Assembly (NCBI RefSeq): GCF_028368975.1
Contig: NZ_JAQNDM010000002.1
Span: 3,404,425 to 3,468,424 of the forward strand
Length of the DNA: 64,000 nt
Direction: 5' to 3'
From: Stigmatella ashevillena
GTDB taxonomy: Bacteria > Myxococcota > Myxococcia > Myxococcales > Myxococcaceae
In this document: positions 1,897 to 10,167 of the stretch, piece after piece
Layout: each line of letters opens with the position of its first letter
How positions within the stretch are numbered: the stretch's first letter is position 1
Position numbers and translations under genes: made by a program
Notes under the pieces: generated by a model
What the model was told of the DNA's origin: nothing
Database searches by the model: none
Seen by the model: only the letters and a program-made list of their open reading frames with translations

Positions 1897-3018
1897 GTGA
1901 GCATCCACCCCGTCGGCCCTGGCGAAACCCTGTCGGGCATTGCCCGCAAGTACAACACCACGGTCAACAAGCTCGCCCAGGACAATGGCATCGCCAACCC
2001 GGACAAGATCCAGGCAGGCCAGAAGCTGACGGTGTCCGGCAGCGCCAGCGCGTCCCGCACCGCGGCGGGCTCCTCGCAGAGCTACACGGTGCGCGAGGGT
2101 GACACCCTGAGTGGTATTGCCCAGAAGTTCGGTACCACCACGAGTGCACTGGCCAAGGCCAACAACATCAGCAACCCCAACCTCATCCGCGTGGGGCAGA
2201 AGCTCACCATCCCGGGGGCCAGTGCTCCCAAGCCTCCCTCGACGCCCCCCCCGCAGAGCTACACGGTGCGCTCGGGCGATACCCTGAGTGGAATTGCCCA
2301 GAAGTTCGGCACCACCACGAGTGCGCTGGCCAAGGCCAACAACATCAGCAACCCCAACCTCATCCGCGTGGGGCAGAAACTCACCATCCCGGGGGGAACA
2401 AAGCCCCCGCAGGACGGCTTCGATCCTCCGGCCACCGGGGGCAAGCCCCCCACGGGCCCCGTCACGGGTCCTGGCAACGGCGCGGGCACGGCGGGCGGCG
2501 TGACGTTGGCGCAGCTGCGCAAGGTCATGCCCAACCTGTCCCAGGCCAAGGCGGAGCAGTACCTGCCGCACCTCAACCGCGCCATGGCCGAGGCGAACAT
2601 CAACACCCCCAAGCGCCAAGCCGCCTTCCTCGCGCAGCTCGCCCACGAGAGCGGCGAGTTCCGCTACATGGAAGAGATCGCCTCGGGCGCCGCCTACGAG
2701 GGCCGCAAGGACCTGGGCAACACGCAGCCGGGGGATGGCGTGCGCTTCAAGGGCCGCGGCCCCATCCAGCTCACCGGCCGGTCCAACTACCGCGCCGCGG
2801 GCAAGGCGCTGGGCATCGACCTGGAAAACAACCCGAAGCGCGCCGCGGACCCGGATGTGGGTTTCCGCACCGCCGCCTGGTTCTGGAACAGCCGCAACCT
2901 CAACACCTACGCGGACGCAGGCAACTTCCGCGAGGTGACCCGCCGGATCAACGGGGGCTACAACGGGCTGGCCAGCCGCGAGGCCTACTACCAGCGCGCC
3001 CTCAACGTCCTCTCCTGA
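1897..3018 (+). CDS. Triple-LysM glycoside hydrolase family 19 protein (chitinase/muramidase-like)
   Basis: This 373-residue cell-wall-active protein has three LysM domains (about 1-46, 61-107 and 120-167), then a Pro/Gly/Thr-rich linker (about 168-200), then a GH19 domain to the end. LysM binds N-acetylglucosamine polymers. The GH19 part shows AHESGEF with the catalytic-type Glu, FKGRGPIQLTGRSNY, and RRINGGYNG near the end, all family hallmarks. The start is a GTG after a weak GGAG, and LysM 1 begins at once, so no signal peptide is visible. Export would need another route (holin, lysis, T6SS or ECIS delivery) or an undetected upstream start. LysM 2 and 3 are a recent duplication, annotated separately. 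Substrate (chitin or peptidoglycan) cannot be decided from sequence. Confidence 0.85.
   Translation: MSIHPVGPGETLSGIARKYNTTVNKLAQDNGIANPDKIQAGQKLTVSGSASASRTAAGSSQSYTVREGDTLSGIAQKFGTTTSALAKANNISNPNLIRVGQKLTIPGASAPKPPSTPPPQSYTVRSGDTLSGIAQKFGTTTSALAKANNISNPNLIRVGQKLTIPGGTKPPQDGFDPPATGGKPPTGPVTGPGNGAGTAGGVTLAQLRKVMPNLSQAKAEQYLPHLNRAMAEANINTPKRQAAFLAQLAHESGEFRYMEEIASGAAYEGRKDLGNTQPGDGVRFKGRGPIQLTGRSNYRAAGKALGIDLENNPKRAADPDVGFRTAAWFWNSRNLNTYADAGNFREVTRRINGGYNGLASREAYYQRALNVLS
2077..2395 (+). repeat. Tandem duplication of a 142-bp LysM-encoding unit
   Basis: Positions 2077-2218 and 2254-2395 align without gaps over 142 bp with 8 differences by eye (about 94% identity). They encode LysM domains 2 and 3. 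The 35-bp spacer encodes a Ser/Pro-rich linker. LysM 1 is much more diverged, so this is a recent internal duplication that could expand or contract by recombination. Confidence 0.9.
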
Positions 3019-3069: not shown

Positions 3070-3123
3070 CGACCTTTCGAATGATCTCCACATTGCGGCT
3101 ACCGTGTGCATGAGGTCTGTCTC

Positions 3124-3882
3124 ATGAACAGAGCAATGCGAATCCGGCGGGCCAGTCTCCTGGGCCTCGCCTCGGCCCTGGCCCTGCTGCTCCTGCCGGT
3201 GCCTCGGGCCCACGCCTCGGCACCTGAGAAGGCCGTCTCCCGAACCGTCAAGCCACGGAAGATCGGCATCATCGGAACCGGCAAGATTGGAGGCGCCCTG
3301 GCGCGGCTCTGGGTCAAGGCCGGCTACGAGGTGCTGATTTCCTCCCGCCACCCCGAGGAGCTCAAGCCGCTCGCGGAACAGCTCGGCCCAAAGGCGCGGG
3401 TCGGCACCCCTCGGGAAGCCGCTGCCTACGGCGATGTCGTGCTGATCTCCGTGCCCTATGGCGCTCTGCCCCAGATCGGACGCGACCATGCCAAGCAGCT
3501 CTCTGGAAAGGTCGTGCTGGAAACGGGCAACCCCTATCCGCAGCGGGACGGCCCCCTCGCCGAGGAAGCACGCCTCAAGGGCACCGGCCAGACCTCGAAG
3601 GCCTTGCTGCCCGGGGTGCGGCTGGTGCGCGCCTTCAACGCCATCAGCGCCGTGGATCTCAGCAACCAATCGGGCCGCGAGGGAACCCTCGTGGGCATTC
3701 CCATCGCCAGCGATGATGAGGAGGCCCTGAAGATCGCCTCCGAGCTGGTCAAGGCCGCGGGGTTCGAGCCCGTCGTCGTGGGAGGCCTGGAGCGCGCGAA
3801 GGATTTCGACGTCGGGACGCCGGTCTACACCCGGCTCCTGACGGCCGAAGAGCTCCGCAAACACCTGGGCCTCCCGCAGTAA
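3124..3882 (+). CDS. NADP-binding oxidoreductase (F420-dependent NADP reductase-like) with Tat-type signal
   Basis: This 252-residue protein carries an N-terminal Rossmann fold with IGIIGTGKIGGALA (GxGxxG) at about 46-59, then VLISSRHPEEL, where Ser/Arg after the second strand suits NADP(H). It matches the COG2085 family of F420H2:NADP reductase-like and ferric-reductase-like proteins. Ahead of this is an unusual leader, RIRRASLLGLASALALLLL...AHA, with twin arginines followed by a hydrophobic core and an AxA cleavage site. I read it as a Tat signal. I chose ATG 3124 because GAGG lies 8-12 bp upstream; GTG 3106 is the alternative. It is monocistronic and convergent with the PBP2 gene. Substrate unknown. 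Confidence 0.75.
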   Translation: MNRAMRIRRASLLGLASALALLLLPVPRAHASAPEKAVSRTVKPRKIGIIGTGKIGGALARLWVKAGYEVLISSRHPEELKPLAEQLGPKARVGTPREAAAYGDVVLISVPYGALPQIGRDHAKQLSGKVVLETGNPYPQRDGPLAEEARLKGTGQTSKALLPGVRLVRAFNAISAVDLSNQSGREGTLVGIPIASDDEEALKIASELVKAAGFEPVVVGGLERAKDFDVGTPVYTRLLTAEELRKHLGLPQ

Positions 3883-3903: not shown

Positions 3904-5889
3904 TCAGTCCACCACGTCCGTGGAGATCGCACCTCGGGAGAGAATGGCGCTCTCCAGGTCTGGGGCGGGCGGCAACGTGGGGGTGTAGGGCTGGTTGGCG
4001 CGCGGCGGCGGTGAGACTTCATCCTGGGCCTTCAAGTCAAAGTACTTCTGGATGACGGCCATGCCGGTGGGCGCCGCGTCCGAGCCCCCGAGACCGCCGT
4101 GCTCGTTGAGCACCACCACGGCGATCTCCGGCGCCTCTGCGGGCGCGAAGGACGCCAGCCATGCGTGATGCCGCGAGAAGAACTCCATCTGGTGCGTCTT
4201 GAGCCGCACCGCGCCCAGCGTGACGACCTGCGCGGTGCCCGTCTTCCCCGCGACCTTGATGTCCTTGAGGCGCTGGCGGTACGCGGTGCCTCCGGGCTCG
4301 TTCACCACCGCCATCAGCGAGTCGATGACCGCCTTGAGGTGCGCTGGGTTGATGTCCACCTTGCGGACCACCTGTGGCTGGAACGCTTCGATGACCCGGC
4401 CGTCGAGATCCTCGATGCGCTGCACCAACTGCGGCTTGTACAGCGTGCCGCCGTTGGCCAGCGACGCGTACACGAGCGCCAGTTGCAGCGGCGTCACGTT
4501 GTCATCGCCCTGCCCGACAGCGCTGTTGAGCGCCATGCCCTTCGAGTAGCCACCCGGCGAGAGCCGGTCATGGTACTCGGGGGTGGGCATGATGCCCGGC
4601 ACCTCGGCCAGGACGCCGATGCCGGTGGGGCTGCCCAGGCCCAGGGACTTGCCCATGTCGGCGATGGGATCCAAGCCGATGGTGTCCGCGACCTTGTAGA
4701 ACCAAGTATTGCACGAGTACTGCATCGCCTGCCGACCCGCCACCGGACCGTGGCCGCTGTCCTTGTGGCAGCGCCAGGTATGTCCTCCCAACGTATAGCC
4801 GCCCGGGCAGTTCACCACCGTCTCCGGCCGGAACAGGCCTGACTTGTAGGCGGCCAGCGCGGAGACGACCTTGAAGGTGGAGCCGGGGCTGTAGTGGTTG
4901 GCGGCCACGCGGTTGATCATCGGCTGGAGGGGATCCTTGGCCAGCGAGGCCAACTGCGCCGGGGTGATACGGCCCGTGAGCAGGTTCGGATCAAAGCCCG
5001 GCCGGGACACCAGCGCGCGAATGAAGCCCGTGTGCACGTCGATGGCCACCACCGCGCCCGCCACCCCCGGGAAGGCCTGCTCGGCCGCCTCTTGCAACCG
5101 CATGTCCAGCGAGAGCACGACGTTGCCACCGGCCTCCGGCGGCACCACCGAGTTCCCCCCGAGCATGTCGTTCAGCTCCTCGATGGTCTGGCCTCGCGCG
5201 TTCACCACTTCCTTGCGCACCCCATCCACCCCGCGCAGCCGCGACTCGAAGTAGCGCTCCAGGCCCCGCCGGCCGATGTAGTCGCCCAGCGCGTACTTCG
5301 CGCCGTCCGCGTTGAGCCGCTCCAGCTCGTCCTGGTTGATCTCGTTCATGTACCCCAGCACGTGCGAGAGCACCGTGCCGGCGCGGTAGTTGCGGTGCGG
5401 CACCGGCACCACCTCCACCCCGTCCAGGATGTCGCGCCGCGCGTTGAGCCGATCCAGCTCATCGCGCGTCAGGTCGACCCGCACCGGAATGGGCTGGAAG
5501 GGCGCGCTCCGGCGGGCGGCGCGCACCTGGTCCTCCACCTTCTGACGCTGCTCGGGGTCCAAAGCGAGCAGGGCCGCCAATTGGGGGATGACCTGCTCGA
5601 AACACTGGGTGCAAAAGGCCGGGGTGATGAACGCATCGAAGGAGGGGCGGCTGTCCACCAGGATGGTCCCACGCACGTCCTTGATGACGCCGCGATCGGC
5701 GCGGAGGCGCACCTCCTTGACGAAGTTGGCCACGCTCTTGGCGGCATACTCCTCGCCCCGGATGAGCTGAAGCCGGTAGAGCTGCATGGCGAGGATGACC
5801 ATGCCGCCCACCATGGCCAACCCCAGAAACAGGAAGCGGCGCTTGAGTTCCCTGCCTGGAGTGGTGTTACCCAATGTTGGGGGCGCCAT
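3904..5889 (-). CDS. mrdA: Penicillin-binding protein 2 (elongation-specific transpeptidase)
   Basis: This 661-residue class B PBP cross-links peptidoglycan during cell elongation, working with RodA. A single TM helix (about 18-40) anchors it, followed by a PBP-dimer domain (about 60-230) and a transpeptidase domain. The active-site triad is visible: SxxK as S337-T-F-K340, SxN as S392-C-N394, and KTG at 549-551. Just before SxN lies a Cys/His cluster (NCPGG, WRCHKDSGH, about 360-380), the position of the structural zinc site described in PBP2 proteins. ATG 5889 sits in a 90-bp divergent gap facing the next gene. mreBCD and rodA, its usual neighbours, are absent here. Confidence 0.93.
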   Translation of the reverse strand: MAPPTLGNTTPGRELKRRFLFLGLAMVGGMVILAMQLYRLQLIRGEEYAAKSVANFVKEVRLRADRGVIKDVRGTILVDSRPSFDAFITPAFCTQCFEQVIPQLAALLALDPEQRQKVEDQVRAARRSAPFQPIPVRVDLTRDELDRLNARRDILDGVEVVPVPHRNYRAGTVLSHVLGYMNEINQDELERLNADGAKYALGDYIGRRGLERYFESRLRGVDGVRKEVVNARGQTIEELNDMLGGNSVVPPEAGGNVVLSLDMRLQEAAEQAFPGVAGAVVAIDVHTGFIRALVSRPGFDPNLLTGRITPAQLASLAKDPLQPMINRVAANHYSPGSTFKVVSALAAYKSGLFRPETVVNCPGGYTLGGHTWRCHKDSGHGPVAGRQAMQYSCNTWFYKVADTIGLDPIADMGKSLGLGSPTGIGVLAEVPGIMPTPEYHDRLSPGGYSKGMALNSAVGQGDDNVTPLQLALVYASLANGGTLYKPQLVQRIEDLDGRVIEAFQPQVVRKVDINPAHLKAVIDSLMAVVNEPGGTAYRQRLKDIKVAGKTGTAQVVTLGAVRLKTHQMEFFSRHHAWLASFAPAEAPEIAVVVLNEHGGLGGSDAAPTGMAVIQKYFDLKAQDEVSPPPRANQPYTPTLPPAPDLESAILSRGAISTDVVD

Positions 5890-5979
5890 CGCCCCTTCAG
5901 TCTACCTGCTCGGTGGGTTGAGGCCAGTCCCTCCAGGCTCCGCGGCCCTCCCACCTTTCAGACGGACCGGCCTCGGGGT

Positions 5980-7602
5980 ATGCACTCAGTCTCGATGAAC
6001 GACAGCGATTCTCTCCACGTGTCCCCTCCCGCCTCGGTGGCCCCTCCCATCCCTGTGGCCCCTGCCGCCCCTGCGGCCCTTCCCCCCCCTGCCCTGGAAC
6101 TGGAAGAGGTGCGCCGCTGCGCACAGCTCCTGGAGGCCATCGTGGCGGACCGCCGGCTCTTGCTCCGGCTCCCCGAGCCAGAGCGGATTGCGCTGCTCAG
6201 CGCCGCGGGCAAGGTCGTGCTTCCCGAGCGCGACAACCGGGCACGCCTCGTCAAATCGCTGCGCAAGGAGCAGAAGCAGGCCAAGCGGAAGCGGGACCAG
6301 GTCGTCCGCGCGTCGACCGAGATCCGCACCCTTCGCCAGGAACCGGTCTTCAGTGCTCCGGCGCCCCGGCTTCTGGGCGAGAACACCGGGCCGGAGCGGC
6401 TGCTGGAGAATGCCCGCCACTGCTACGTGTGCAAGGAGGAGTACAAGCGCCTCCACTTCTTCTATGACGCGATGTGCCCCACCTGCGCCGACTTCAACTA
6501 TGCCAAGCGCTTCCAGCAAGCTCCCCTGGAGGGCAAGGTAGCGCTCATCACGGGCGCGCGGGTGAAGATTGGTTTCCAGGCATCGCTGATGCTGCTGCGC
6601 TCCGGGGCCCGGGTGATCGCCACCACGCGCTTTCCGAATGACGCCGCCGAGCGCTATGCCCGGGAGCCGGACTTCTCCTCCTGGGGCCACCGCATTCATG
6701 TTCACGGGCTGGATTTGCGCCATGCCCCCAGCGTCGAACTCTTCGCGCGCTACGTGGACCAGGCCTACGAGCGCCTGGACATCTTGATCAACAACGCGGC
6801 CCAGACCGTCCGGCGCCCCCCGGGCTTCTACGCCCACCTCCTCTCGAAGGAGATGCAGCCGGTGGAATCCCTGCCCAAAGCCTGCGCCCCGCTTCTCGTG
6901 GGCCATCAGCAGTGCCTGGCGAGGGTTCAGCCCGCCCTGGAATCAGGCACCACGAGCACGAGCATCACCTGGCGCAGCGCGGACCCCGCCATCGGACTCC
7001 ACTCTTCGGCCGCCCTCTCGCTGGTGCCCTATGCCTTCGAGCAGGAGGGGGACACCCAGCGGCTCTTCCCCGAGGGCCGGCTGGATGCGGACCTGCAACA
7101 GGTGGACTTGCGAGAGGTGAACTCGTGGCGGCTGCGGCTGGCGGAGGTGGCGACCGCCGAGATGCTCGAGGTGCACCTGGTGAACGCGGTGGCCCCCTTC
7201 ATTCTCTGCGGCAAGCTCAAGCCCTTGATGTTGCGCAACCGCTCCGAGATTGGCCACATCGTGAATGTCTCGGCGATGGAGGGCAGCTTCTCGCGCGGCA
7301 AGAAGACGGACAAGCACCCCCACACGAACATGGCGAAGGCAGCGCTGAACATGATGACGCTGACCTCTGCGCCCGACTACGCCCGGGACGGCATCTACAT
7401 GAACGCGGTGGACACCGGCTGGGTGACGGACGAGGACCCCGCCATCCACGCGCAGCGCAAGCAGGAGGAACTCGACTTCCACCCGCCGCTCGACATCGTG
7501 GACGGAGCCGCCCGCGTGGTGGACCCCGTCTTCATGGCGGTCAAGACGGGCCAGGGCGGCTGGGGCAACTTCTTCAAGGACTACCGCCACACCTCCTGGT
7601 GA
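5980..7602 (+). CDS. SDR-fold protein with N-terminal zinc ribbon and no catalytic Tyr
   Basis: This 540-residue protein begins with a Pro/Ala-rich tail and a basic helix (about 90-107), then a zinc-ribbon-like CYVC (148-151) and CPTC (166-169) pair. From about 185 it is a short-chain dehydrogenase: ALITGARVKIGF at the cofactor site, LDILINNAA at 267-274, and NVS with S431. The usual YxxxK reads TNMAK, with Thr449 in place of Tyr and K453 kept. About 115 residues (280-395) are inserted between the NNAA strand and the next core helix. Activity as a dehydrogenase is therefore doubtful; a binding or regulatory role is possible. ATG 5995 (MNDSDS) is an alternative start. Confidence 0.75.
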   Translation: MHSVSMNDSDSLHVSPPASVAPPIPVAPAAPAALPPPALELEEVRRCAQLLEAIVADRRLLLRLPEPERIALLSAAGKVVLPERDNRARLVKSLRKEQKQAKRKRDQVVRASTEIRTLRQEPVFSAPAPRLLGENTGPERLLENARHCYVCKEEYKRLHFFYDAMCPTCADFNYAKRFQQAPLEGKVALITGARVKIGFQASLMLLRSGARVIATTRFPNDAAERYAREPDFSSWGHRIHVHGLDLRHAPSVELFARYVDQAYERLDILINNAAQTVRRPPGFYAHLLSKEMQPVESLPKACAPLLVGHQQCLARVQPALESGTTSTSITWRSADPAIGLHSSAALSLVPYAFEQEGDTQRLFPEGRLDADLQQVDLREVNSWRLRLAEVATAEMLEVHLVNAVAPFILCGKLKPLMLRNRSEIGHIVNVSAMEGSFSRGKKTDKHPHTNMAKAALNMMTLTSAPDYARDGIYMNAVDTGWVTDEDPAIHAQRKQEELDFHPPLDIVDGAARVVDPVFMAVKTGQGGWGNFFKDYRHTSW

Positions 7603-7636: not shown

Positions 7637-8941
7637 TCAGAAGACGGTATCGGTCTGATCGGCGATGGAGGCGCCCATCCCATCGGTGCACGGGATGGAC
7701 GCACCGTCCGCGGCCTTGCAAGCCGTGGTGGCACAGGCGTAGGGCTCGGCCTGCTGTGCTCGCGGTTGGAGGAACATGGGGTTGATGAGCCATCGCCCAT
7801 CATCGTTGTGGTAGGCGTTGCACATCAGCTCCTTCTTGTTGCGATTGATCGCCAGCCGCAGGGCGGTGGCGTCCCGCATGAAAGTCAAATCCGTATCGGA
7901 GTCGCCCGCGGCGAACAGGGGCCGCTGGCCCACGTTGGGATTCGGCTCGAACGCCGCGGCGCCGGTGACGCCGAAGAGAACCTTGTTCATCCAACAGCGC
8001 TTGCCATCAATGTAGGTGATGACGCTGTTGCCCCTCACCTGCCCTTGTCCATCGTTGGCGCCATCGGGCACGTCCCCACACCCCTCGAGGCTGTAACCCA
8101 GCTTGCCCCCCTCCTCGAGGGTGCGGATGCCAATCACGTGGCTGGCATCAATGCCCACCGCCTGGGCCCAGGGTTCGACCACCCCCTGCGGGGAGGCCGA
8201 GAGGATCCAGAGATCGAAACCGTTGGTCTGCATGCTCGCGAGCAGATCCTTCATCTGCCCGGGGACACGCACCCAGTGCGTGACCGAGGTGCTTCCGATC
8301 GTCTGCTTCGTATCGATGGGATTGCCCAGGTTCTCGGCCATCGCGGCCTCGGCGATGGCCTTCACCTCGGCCCGGGTGTGGCCCGCGAGCAACTGGGCGA
8401 ACCAGGCATAGGAGGGCTCCATGCGGCGGTAGTTCCAGCCGCCCCACGCGGCCTTGCCTGCAGTGGTCTTTGCCTCGGAGTAGATCGTCAACAACTCCTG
8501 GGCACAGGCTGGATTCGAGGAGGTGGGCAGACGCGAGCCGGCTTCGGCCAGGGCCCCACACGCGGCATCGAGCGCGACGACTGCGTCACCGGTCAGCAGG
8601 TGGCTCGTCAGGCGCCAGTTCTTCCCTGGCGGTTGAAGGACCTCGTCGTGCGCCAGCATGTAGAAGAAGGTGGCGTCGCCGATGTCGTTCTTGATGACCG
8701 TGTTGTCCCAGTCAAAGACAGCAATGGGCTTCTTCGCCTCATCGTAGGTGCTCGAACACCGGCCGTACGTCTTCATCAGCGCATCGAGCTGATTCCGGTT
8801 GGTGCCATGCCACGCCAATTCCGGCTCGAGCACCTGGCACGACACGCCCGGCTGAGATTCCTCACACCCGGAGAGGCCCCAGGCCAATGACATGGCGGCC
8901 ACAGCCCCCCTCCAGACACGCTTCCGCTCCGCATCCATCAT
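7637..8941 (-). CDS. HAD-superfamily phosphatase-like lipoprotein
   Basis: This protein of about 434 residues is anchored by a lipoprotein signal (hydrophobic stretch ending LSGC, Cys about 28). HAD motif I is FDWDNTVIKND, with the nucleophile and acid/base Asp pair. The motif II position has LWILSASPQG and motif IV is AAGDSDTDLTFM, so the fold is complete and probably active. The overall pattern resembles phosphoserine-phosphatase-like HAD enzymes found outside the cytoplasm. I chose ATG 8941 because GGGAG lies just upstream and the lipobox falls at the right distance; ATG 8971 is an alternative. It diverges from the kelch gene across 116 bp. Substrate unknown. Confidence 0.8.
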   Translation of the reverse strand: MMDAERKRVWRGAVAAMSLAWGLSGCEESQPGVSCQVLEPELAWHGTNRNQLDALMKTYGRCSSTYDEAKKPIAVFDWDNTVIKNDIGDATFFYMLAHDEVLQPPGKNWRLTSHLLTGDAVVALDAACGALAEAGSRLPTSSNPACAQELLTIYSEAKTTAGKAAWGGWNYRRMEPSYAWFAQLLAGHTRAEVKAIAEAAMAENLGNPIDTKQTIGSTSVTHWVRVPGQMKDLLASMQTNGFDLWILSASPQGVVEPWAQAVGIDASHVIGIRTLEEGGKLGYSLEGCGDVPDGANDGQGQVRGNSVITYIDGKRCWMNKVLFGVTGAAAFEPNPNVGQRPLFAAGDSDTDLTFMRDATALRLAINRNKKELMCNAYHNDDGRWLINPMFLQPRAQQAEPYACATTACKAADGASIPCTDGMGASIADQTDTVF

Positions 8942-9057
8942 CTGCTCCCAGACCCTGGCGTTCGCCTCCATCGTTCCAGCTCCGCGAAGTGCGGTCCAGA
9001 GGCCCACGGACGCAGGAGGCTGCCGCTCCGAGACGTTGGAACGGATACGCTGAGGAC

Positions 9058-10167
9058 ATGACCGCCGTCCGTTCTTCCCTCCCGCGACGCATCCCTTATT
9101 CCGGCATCTGGATTGACAACTACAGTCTGACGGCCGTCCCAGGCGGCGCGCTGCTGGCGGGGGGAGTCGAATGGCATCGCGACGGCATCGGCGCCACGAG
9201 CCGGACCACAGGGGGCGCGGCGTTCTGGGACGCCTCGCAAGAGGCATGGTTCCCCCTCGAGCCCTTGCCCTCGCCGAGACATGACCATGCGGCGGTGACG
9301 CTGGCGGACGGGCGCGTCCTGCTCATCGGAGGACGTGCCGAGCAGATCATGGAGATGAACAGCACCCTGCTCTGGGAACCCGGGGCCCAAGGCTTCCGGG
9401 AAGGCCCTCCCCTCATCGAGGCACGGGCGCGCCCCATCGCGGTGACGCTCCCCGATGGCTCGGTGCTGGTTCTGGGCTCCGAACTCGACGAGGACCTGGA
9501 GCGCGGCACGCGGGCCGAGCTGCTCCGCCCAGGAGCCAGTGCCTGGGAGCCCGCGGGACAGACGGCACGCATCTTCCACACCGGCCCCGTCTGCGTGAGC
9601 GGCGGCCAGGTGCTCATCGCGGGGGGCCGGGACAACGGCTTCGGCTTCGCCATCATCGAGGGCACCCACTATGCGCCTCCCCTCTCGCAGAGCACCGAAC
9701 TCTGGGAACACGAGCACCGGCGCTGGCGGTCCAGTGGCCCGTTGGCGGAATCCCGGGACGATCCGAAGGGCATCACCCTCTCGGACGGACGCATCCTCGT
9801 CGTGGGCGGCTGGGACCACGGCCGCGCCCTGACCACCTCGGAGGTGTGGGCTCCTGGCACCGGCCTCTGGAGCTCCGCGGGGACGATGGCCTCGGCGCGG
9901 TCCTCCTTTGCCCTGACGGCGCTCCCGGATGGACGGGCCGCGGTGTCCGGGGGACTCGTGGAAGGGTCCTTTGCAGCCACGGCGACGGTGGAGATCTGGC
10001 ATCCCGGGACGCGCACCTGGTCTCCCGGCAAACCGCTGGAGGTGTCCCGCGCAGGCCACCAGCTTGCCGCCGTGGGCGAGGGGACGTTCCTCGTCGTGGG
10101 AAATCACACCCCCACCCCGGACGCGCCCCCTGAAACGAGCTGGGAGCTGTGGCGGCCCGAGGCATGA
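9058..10167 (+). CDS. Kelch-motif beta-propeller protein
   Basis: This 369-residue protein consists of about six repeats of roughly 50-60 residues. Each has a GG-containing strand (LLAGGVEW, LLIGGRAE, LIAGGRDN, LVVGGWDH, AAVSGGLV) followed by a Trp/Glu-rich strand such as ELWEHEHRRW, EVWAPGTGLW or EIWHPGTRTW. That is the kelch/galactose-oxidase propeller pattern, very common in myxobacteria. No signal peptide or catalytic domain is visible, so it is probably a cytoplasmic binding propeller, unlike most secreted myxobacterial kelch proteins. Start ATG 9058 follows GAGG. Confidence 0.8.
   Translation: MTAVRSSLPRRIPYSGIWIDNYSLTAVPGGALLAGGVEWHRDGIGATSRTTGGAAFWDASQEAWFPLEPLPSPRHDHAAVTLADGRVLLIGGRAEQIMEMNSTLLWEPGAQGFREGPPLIEARARPIAVTLPDGSVLVLGSELDEDLERGTRAELLRPGASAWEPAGQTARIFHTGPVCVSGGQVLIAGGRDNGFGFAIIEGTHYAPPLSQSTELWEHEHRRWRSSGPLAESRDDPKGITLSDGRILVVGGWDHGRALTTSEVWAPGTGLWSSAGTMASARSSFALTALPDGRAAVSGGLVEGSFAATATVEIWHPGTRTWSPGKPLEVSRAGHQLAAVGEGTFLVVGNHTPTPDAPPETSWELWRPEA

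Follow-up and report, generated by a model that had tools for sequence, protein, structure and literature searches.

The open reading frame at positions 5980..7602 (+) of the window, the 64,000-nucleotide stretch of the Stigmatella ashevillena genome analysed here, encodes a 540-amino-acid protein of the type-1 branch of a distinct, well-conserved family derived from short-chain dehydrogenases/reductases (SDRs), and not a decayed enzyme. Judging from its sequence and relatives, the protein may be an SDR derivative that binds NADP(H), has a rebuilt active site, and is directed at RNA, probably tRNA, a reading to which we assign a probability of about 0.48. Translation probably starts at Met6 (position 5995) rather than at the first codon of the frame, because a 94% identical orthologue (L002) has no in-frame equivalent of Met1; the frame of this orthologue opens at V-S-M straight after a stop. 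From the N- to the C-terminus, the protein comprises a helical part that includes a Lys/Arg-rich stretch, then a Cys4 ribbon, and finally an SDR core at residues 180-535.

The core is clearly predicted to be an SDR Rossmann fold. The Pfam profiles adh_short (PF00106, E 8.5e-21) and adh_short_C2 (E 2.2e-15) matched the protein and placed nothing beyond the two core halves. In the AlphaFold model, for which a 53-row alignment served as input (mean pLDDT 83.4), the best VIA-align match of the core was tropinone reductase I (1ae1; Z 23.4, 233 residues, rmsd 2.8 Å), and Foldseek matched the model to many SDRs (E 4e-10). An earlier reading of this DNA made without database searches (the sequence-only reading) had assigned the protein to the SDR fold, and these matches uphold the assignment. 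The window protein shares with classical SDRs (PF00106) the Rossmann core, the NNA motif, and the Asn, Ser, and Lys of the catalytic tetrad. Unlike them, it lacks the catalytic Tyr, carries a Lys in the glycine loop and an insertion of approximately 106 residues, reaches 540 amino acids, and has a Cys4 ribbon as well as a helical N-terminus containing a basic stretch.

The helical region at residues 41-118 (6100..6333, +) was delimited in AlphaFold models. The N-terminal part, ribbon included, when modelled separately had a mean pLDDT of 91.9 and no significant fold match in the PDB (Foldseek E 1.1 and VIA-align Z 2.0 at best), the ribosomal-protein rows among its Foldseek matches being scattered and not significant (E 2.7 to 7.1). 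No known RNA-binding fold was thus matched by the N-terminal model in the PDB search, which speaks against RNA as the target. The Lys/Arg-rich region at residues 84-130 (6229..6369, +) showed a median net charge of +9 in the 28 rows of alignment A1 and +10 in the 53 rows of alignment A2, with a minimum of +4. In a cruder window, the 50 residues before the ribbon in 171 relatives, the median was +9 for type 1 (range -15 to +13) and +5 for type 2 (range 2 to 9); the fact that some type-1 relatives lack a positive charge here also counts against an RNA target. The Cys4 motif C148-x2-C151...C166-x2-C169 (6421..6486, +), a putative zinc ribbon, was invariant in all rows of both A1 and A2, in agreement with the CxxC...CxxC ribbon that had been noticed ahead of the domain. 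The basic N-terminus and the ribbon would fit nucleic-acid binding.

Within the core, the glycine-rich loop is altered. It reads TGARVKIG (6550..6573, +), in which the first and third Gly of the classical SDR pattern TGxxxGxG are present and the middle Gly is replaced by Lys196; position 196 is a Gly in three PDB chains aligned by phmmer and a Lys in all 171 parsed relatives. The TRFP stretch after strand 2 (6625..6636, +) contains R217, invariant in the alignment, which presumably stands where NADP-type SDRs carry an Arg and may contact the 2'-phosphate of NADP. The NNAA motif at residues 271-274 (6790..6801, +) was found in the sequence and in the alignment. Of the cofactor and NNAA motifs described earlier as kept, NNAA and the outer two glycines therefore stand and the middle Gly does not, and NAD(P) binding is less certain than previously held because Lys196 sits in the glycine loop. 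The insertion between NNAA and helix E (6808..7134, +), recognized as a gap against PDB chains and variable in length among relatives, is also present, with a size of approximately 106 rather than about 115 residues (residues 276-391 against 115-124 of the chain best matched by phmmer). The alignments showed a conserved end of the insertion, D369-x-D-x-Q...D376-x-R-x2-N-S-W383 (7084..7128, +).

The remaining active-site positions follow the insertion. N402 (7183..7185, +) occupies what we take to be the position of the SDR tetrad Asn. S431 (7270..7272, +) aligns with the catalytic Ser and is the loosest residue of the active site; of the 169 relatives read, 155 have Ser and 14 have Thr here. 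The motif HPHTNMAK at residues 446-453 (7315..7338, +) places Thr449 at the Tyr site, keeps K453, and has H446 seven residues before the Lys. The earlier statement that S431 and K453 are kept is thus correct for the window protein, the Ser position being looser among relatives. In our reading of the alignments, DTGW at residues 478-481 (7411..7422, +) replaces, and may be equivalent to, the SDR PG motif. In the AlphaFold model, Thr449 lies within the helix 447-469, four residues ahead of K453, and the loop 435-440 just before the active site has a pLDDT below 50.

The relatives, gathered from genome searches, genome contigs, plasmids, and virus contigs, amounted to 172 distinct loci, of which 171 were parsed. 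The window's own copy (L001 and L117), a generic SDR (L030), L190-L193, L028 and L029 (the same genes as L164 and L165), the duplicates L116, L119, L121, L122, L127, L128, L132, and L135, and later loci with identical proteins were left out of the counts. Because relatives were parsed by their ribbon and a stretch reading K-A-x-L-[NK]-M, the presence of these two features is not an independent result in this set. The Tyr site was Thr in all 171 parsed relatives, the motif reading H-x2-T-x3-K and never YxxxK. The sequence-only reading had reported TNMAK with Thr449 in place of YxxxK, and the homologues, among which a YxxxK majority would have refuted that reading, had no Tyr in any of the 171. 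Eighty of the 171 were found via patterns containing HPHTNMA(K) and were hence unable to reveal a Tyr, and the other 91, found by profile or tblastn with no motif required, showed the same site. The single unparsed relative (L089) carries HPHTNMAK, and two Bacteroidota proteins carry HPHTNMTK, in which the Thr and the Lys are kept. In addition, N402, H446, P447, H448, T449, N450, M451, K453, and W481 were invariant in A1 and A2. FabI-type divergent SDRs have their Tyr seven residues before the active-site Lys. The window protein likewise has a conserved side chain at this distance, which differs in being His446, a His in all 171 parsed relatives, instead of Tyr; it also differs from the FabI type in being matched by classical SDR profiles.

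These features are not due to chance, since the SDR profile matched with E 8.5e-21 and conservation of the site extends across phyla. A degenerate or mis-sequenced gene, whose sole support is the missing Tyr, has a negligible probability, as the site is common to every parsed relative and 26 of 29 rows (L001-L029) lack internal stops, those in L002, L003, and L017 being near the N-terminal end of the match. Of the two explanations offered earlier, lost dehydrogenase chemistry has become less likely and another mechanism likelier, because the active-site residues are invariant, unlike those of a decaying site.

The family is widespread. At least 588 tblastn-confirmed stretches were found in one genome-contig scan, of which 80 were kept, and 104 of 193 Myxococcota genomes matched at E 1e-20. 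Among Bacteroidota, 19 of 296 genomes matched at E 1e-60; a different profile run on a larger sample matched 24 of 395 at E 1e-40. Further rows came from Elusimicrobiota, Planctomycetota, Acidobacteriota, Bdellovibrionota, Thermodesulfobacteriota, Deinococcota, and Actinomycetota, and 50,697 phage records searched by tblastn with the window protein gave no match. A tree of 70 rows, the root of which is not fixed, separated type 1 (54 rows, including the window protein) from type 2 (16 rows) with an SH-aLRT of 99. The insertion is also shorter in type 2, where the distance from NNA to the tetrad Asn has a median of 97 residues (19 rows) compared to 133 in type 1 (142 rows). Two annotated relatives carry only the label 'SDR family NAD(P)-dependent oxidoreductase', and a literature search found no paper on this family, which may nonetheless be published. 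Two type-2 genes, on a virus contig (L111) and on a Deinococcus plasmid (L112), have a downstream neighbour cluster in common, the copy of which in L111 has leucine-rich repeats. Another virus contig (L191) encodes a 39% identical relative at 5001-6071 (+), with a tRNA-Glu gene on the opposite strand just upstream (4845-4914, -).

The type-2 branch mostly adjoins tRNA genes. Same-strand tRNA genes predicted by ARAGORN lay within 300 bp in 15 of 19 type-2 loci compared to 0 of 153 type-1 loci, 143 of the latter with both flanks (Fisher about 1e-17, kinship ignored), and the lack of such linkage in type 1 speaks against the RNA reading. Among type-2 loci flanked by 250 bp or more on each side, 14 of 17 were linked, L157 (80 bp upstream) being outside this set. 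The linked loci comprise nine from myxobacteria (L156-L164), five from Bacteroidota (L183-L187), and the Deinococcus plasmid (L112), with one to five tRNA genes each. Three actinobacterial type-2 loci had no detectable tRNA gene, and one virus-contig locus ends upstream. The myxobacterial arrays are upstream of the type-2 gene; in the Bacteroidota loci, the nearest downstream tRNA gene starts 4 to 145 bp past the stop, and in two of these loci a further tRNA gene lies upstream.

Of the 24 tRNAs of the myxobacterial and Deinococcus loci, 21 exceeded the Rfam tRNA cut-off, and position -1 is able to pair with position 73 in 21. CCA directly follows the discriminator in none of the 37 tRNA genes; the letters CCA fall within the nine-base 3'-end window in eight of them, out of register by our reading, and 17 of 23 myxobacterial copies have CCGGGC at the 3' end, where CCA might be expected. 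One tRNA body carries many anticodons (across all 37, GCT 11, TGC 5, CAT 4, GCC 4, CCA 4, and others), and between the orthologous loci L183:4281-5895 and L185:3910-5524, the anticodons change from GTC to ATC and from GCT to GCC with nearly unchanged bodies. A strict pattern of the myxobacterial tRNA body gave 14 matches in 23 genomes, every one beside a type-2 gene; it was found in six of the nine genomes with type 2 (three were missed) and in none of the 14 genomes that lack type 2, among them the window's genome. Allo-tRNAs and irregular tRNA polycistrons, with tRNA-like genes that have unexpected anticodons and in some cases G at -1, are described in parts of PMC7609411. The type-2-linked tRNAs share the unexpected anticodons with those described there and differ from them in a possible 8-bp acceptor and 5-bp T stem and in adjoining a type-2 SDR gene.

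Four of the five Bacteroidota type-2 loci also contain RNA-repair enzymes, namely RtcB and Ro60 (TROVE) in L184/L195, Rnl1, Pnkp, and Ro60 in L186/L196, Rnl2 and RlaP in L183, and Rnl1, Pnkp, RlaP, and Rnl2 in L185/L197. The fifth (L187) has DUF434 only; DUF434/DUF5616 was found in all five, in four by Pfam and in L185 by tblastn. The sister branch of the window protein thus occurs, in 4/5 Bacteroidota genomes, in loci of the kind known as bacterial RNA-repair operons, going by the parts of PMC7824862 and PMC7790460 that treat them, and the word dehydrogenase is absent from the main text of PMC7824862. The window gene differs from these operons in having none of their neighbours (RtcB, Rnl, Pnkp, RlaP, Ro60). 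Furthermore, three of the nine myxobacterial type-2 loci have Septu genes upstream of their array of tRNA genes, with PtuA detected by PADLOC at L156:6031-8126 (-), L159:1328-2677 (+), and L160:1428-3538 (+), and PtuB detected by PADLOC in L156 and L160, to which tblastn added L159. According to the relevant parts of two reports, Septu cuts the variable loop of tRNA-Tyr (PMC13096335), and phages escape retrons by making tRNAs (PMC11555353).

The window gene is flanked by a divergent penicillin-binding protein gene upstream (3907-5889, -) and a convergent HAD-like gene downstream (7640-9247, -), and therefore stands alone. Rfam and tRNA scans across the window gave no match, and PADLOC matched neither the window protein nor two type-2 proteins. 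The window also encodes a three-LysM protein with a GH19 chitinase-like domain (1897-3015, +) and an F420-NADP oxidoreductase-like protein (3106-3879, +). Searches for RNA ligase, RtcB, RlaP, Pnkp, and Ro60 gave no match in the window or in any type-1 locus searched. Thirteen neighbour queries in all, covering repair families, PtuA, PtuB, and others, likewise left every type-1 locus unmatched, which speaks against the RNA reading, although many of these loci include only 1.5 kb of flank. Far from the window, its genome has three RtcB matches (C2:2341239, 5875791, 8233893) and two adjacent RlaP matches (C2:4881150-4882891).

An operon context common to type 1 was rejected, as no neighbour family was shared across phyla and the recurring ones mostly reflect Flavobacteriaceae synteny. 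A DEAD-box helicase cluster was found near type 1 in five loci, upstream in L059, L072, L102, and L104 and downstream in L053, lying at most 25 bp from the type-1 gene in some Flavobacteriaceae; its DbpA domain was checked in L104 only. Other RNA-related neighbours were TruA-like in two loci, RluA-like, RF-1, and KTSC/DnaJ, and a scan of 20 single neighbours (17 of type 1, three of type 2) yielded five RNA or translation genes, with KTSC/DnaJ as a sixth. The RNA-gene neighbours of type 1 (DbpA, TruA, RluA, RF-1) are weak evidence, being few and counted without a control set.

The distribution of the branches suggests that type 2 stands in for type 1. In three genera (g1, g23, and g43; 50 genomes), chosen after the type-2 distribution was known, type 1 was missing from four genomes, spread over all three genera, and all four carry type 2, compared to five of the 46 genomes with type 1 (Fisher 5e-4, kinship ignored). 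The absence of type 1 was upheld by a search of nine type-2 genomes in which every candidate was scored. Against such a substitution, 16 others of the same family among the genomes listed have neither branch, so the function of the protein family would be dispensable; the Myxococcota listing was ordered by kinship, and the 69 non-matching genomes outside it should belong to other families.

Considering these results, we propose the following scenario. The window gene would represent the stand-alone type-1 branch of an ancient SDR-derived family acting on RNA, most likely tRNA. The RNA may be held by the basic N-terminus and the ribbon, and NADP(H) may be bound in the SDR core. H446 or H448, along with T449 and K453, would replace the Tyr, and the site formed by H446, H448, T449, and K453 could act by redox or acid-base chemistry, with a nucleotide or the end of a tRNA as its target. 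Type 2 may have the same activity within RNA-repair or defence loci, and type 1 may be the chromosomal version with cellular RNA as its target. Of the possible targets, RNA has the best support, with odds that are about even; the strongest clue, which the sequence-only reading had no means of seeing, is that the sister branch mostly adjoins tRNA genes and, in four of five Bacteroidota loci, RNA-repair enzymes. More tentatively, the family as a whole may consist of NADP(H)-dependent RNA-directed SDRs with the motif H-x-H-T-x3-K that modify, heal, or check tRNA, in which type 2 would be an unrecognized part of RNA-repair and Septu-linked loci with their own anticodon-varying tRNAs, and type 1 a settled form on the chromosome, with cellular tRNA or rRNA as its target.

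It is somewhat doubtful that the protein is instead an ordinary small-molecule oxidoreductase, in which H446 would replace the Tyr as proton donor, the insertion would form a lid, and type 1 would be unrelated to RNA. The conserved Asn, Ser/Thr, Lys, and two His at the site, the invariant residues with which the insertion closes, the spacing of H446, like that of the FabI Tyr at minus 7, and the position of type 1 alone in the genome are all consistent with such an enzyme. However, the aligned relatives include the helical N-terminus with its basic stretch and Cys4 ribbon, the sister branch is found mostly with tRNAs and partly with RNA repair, and in three genera every genome without type 1 has type 2. 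NmrA-type proteins are regulatory SDRs, and a non-catalytic NADP(H)-sensing regulator of this type, binding RNA or protein, would explain why the Tyr and the loop Gly are missing in all 171 parsed relatives and why the Ser is conserved only in part. We consider this improbable, as the strand and helix around the site rank with the best-conserved stretches of the protein, beyond what cofactor sensing needs, and the NmrA profile was absent among the four Pfam families matching the window protein at E up to 1.

The annotation of these proteins as SDR oxidoreductases hides a large family (at least 588 stretches in one scan) with a non-SDR active site. If the family acts on RNA, a redox-type fold would join RNA modification or repair, which would help to explain the tRNA arrays adjoining type-2 genes in myxobacteria and Bacteroidota and would provide a testable partner for the repair of tRNA damaged in the conflict between phages and bacteria.
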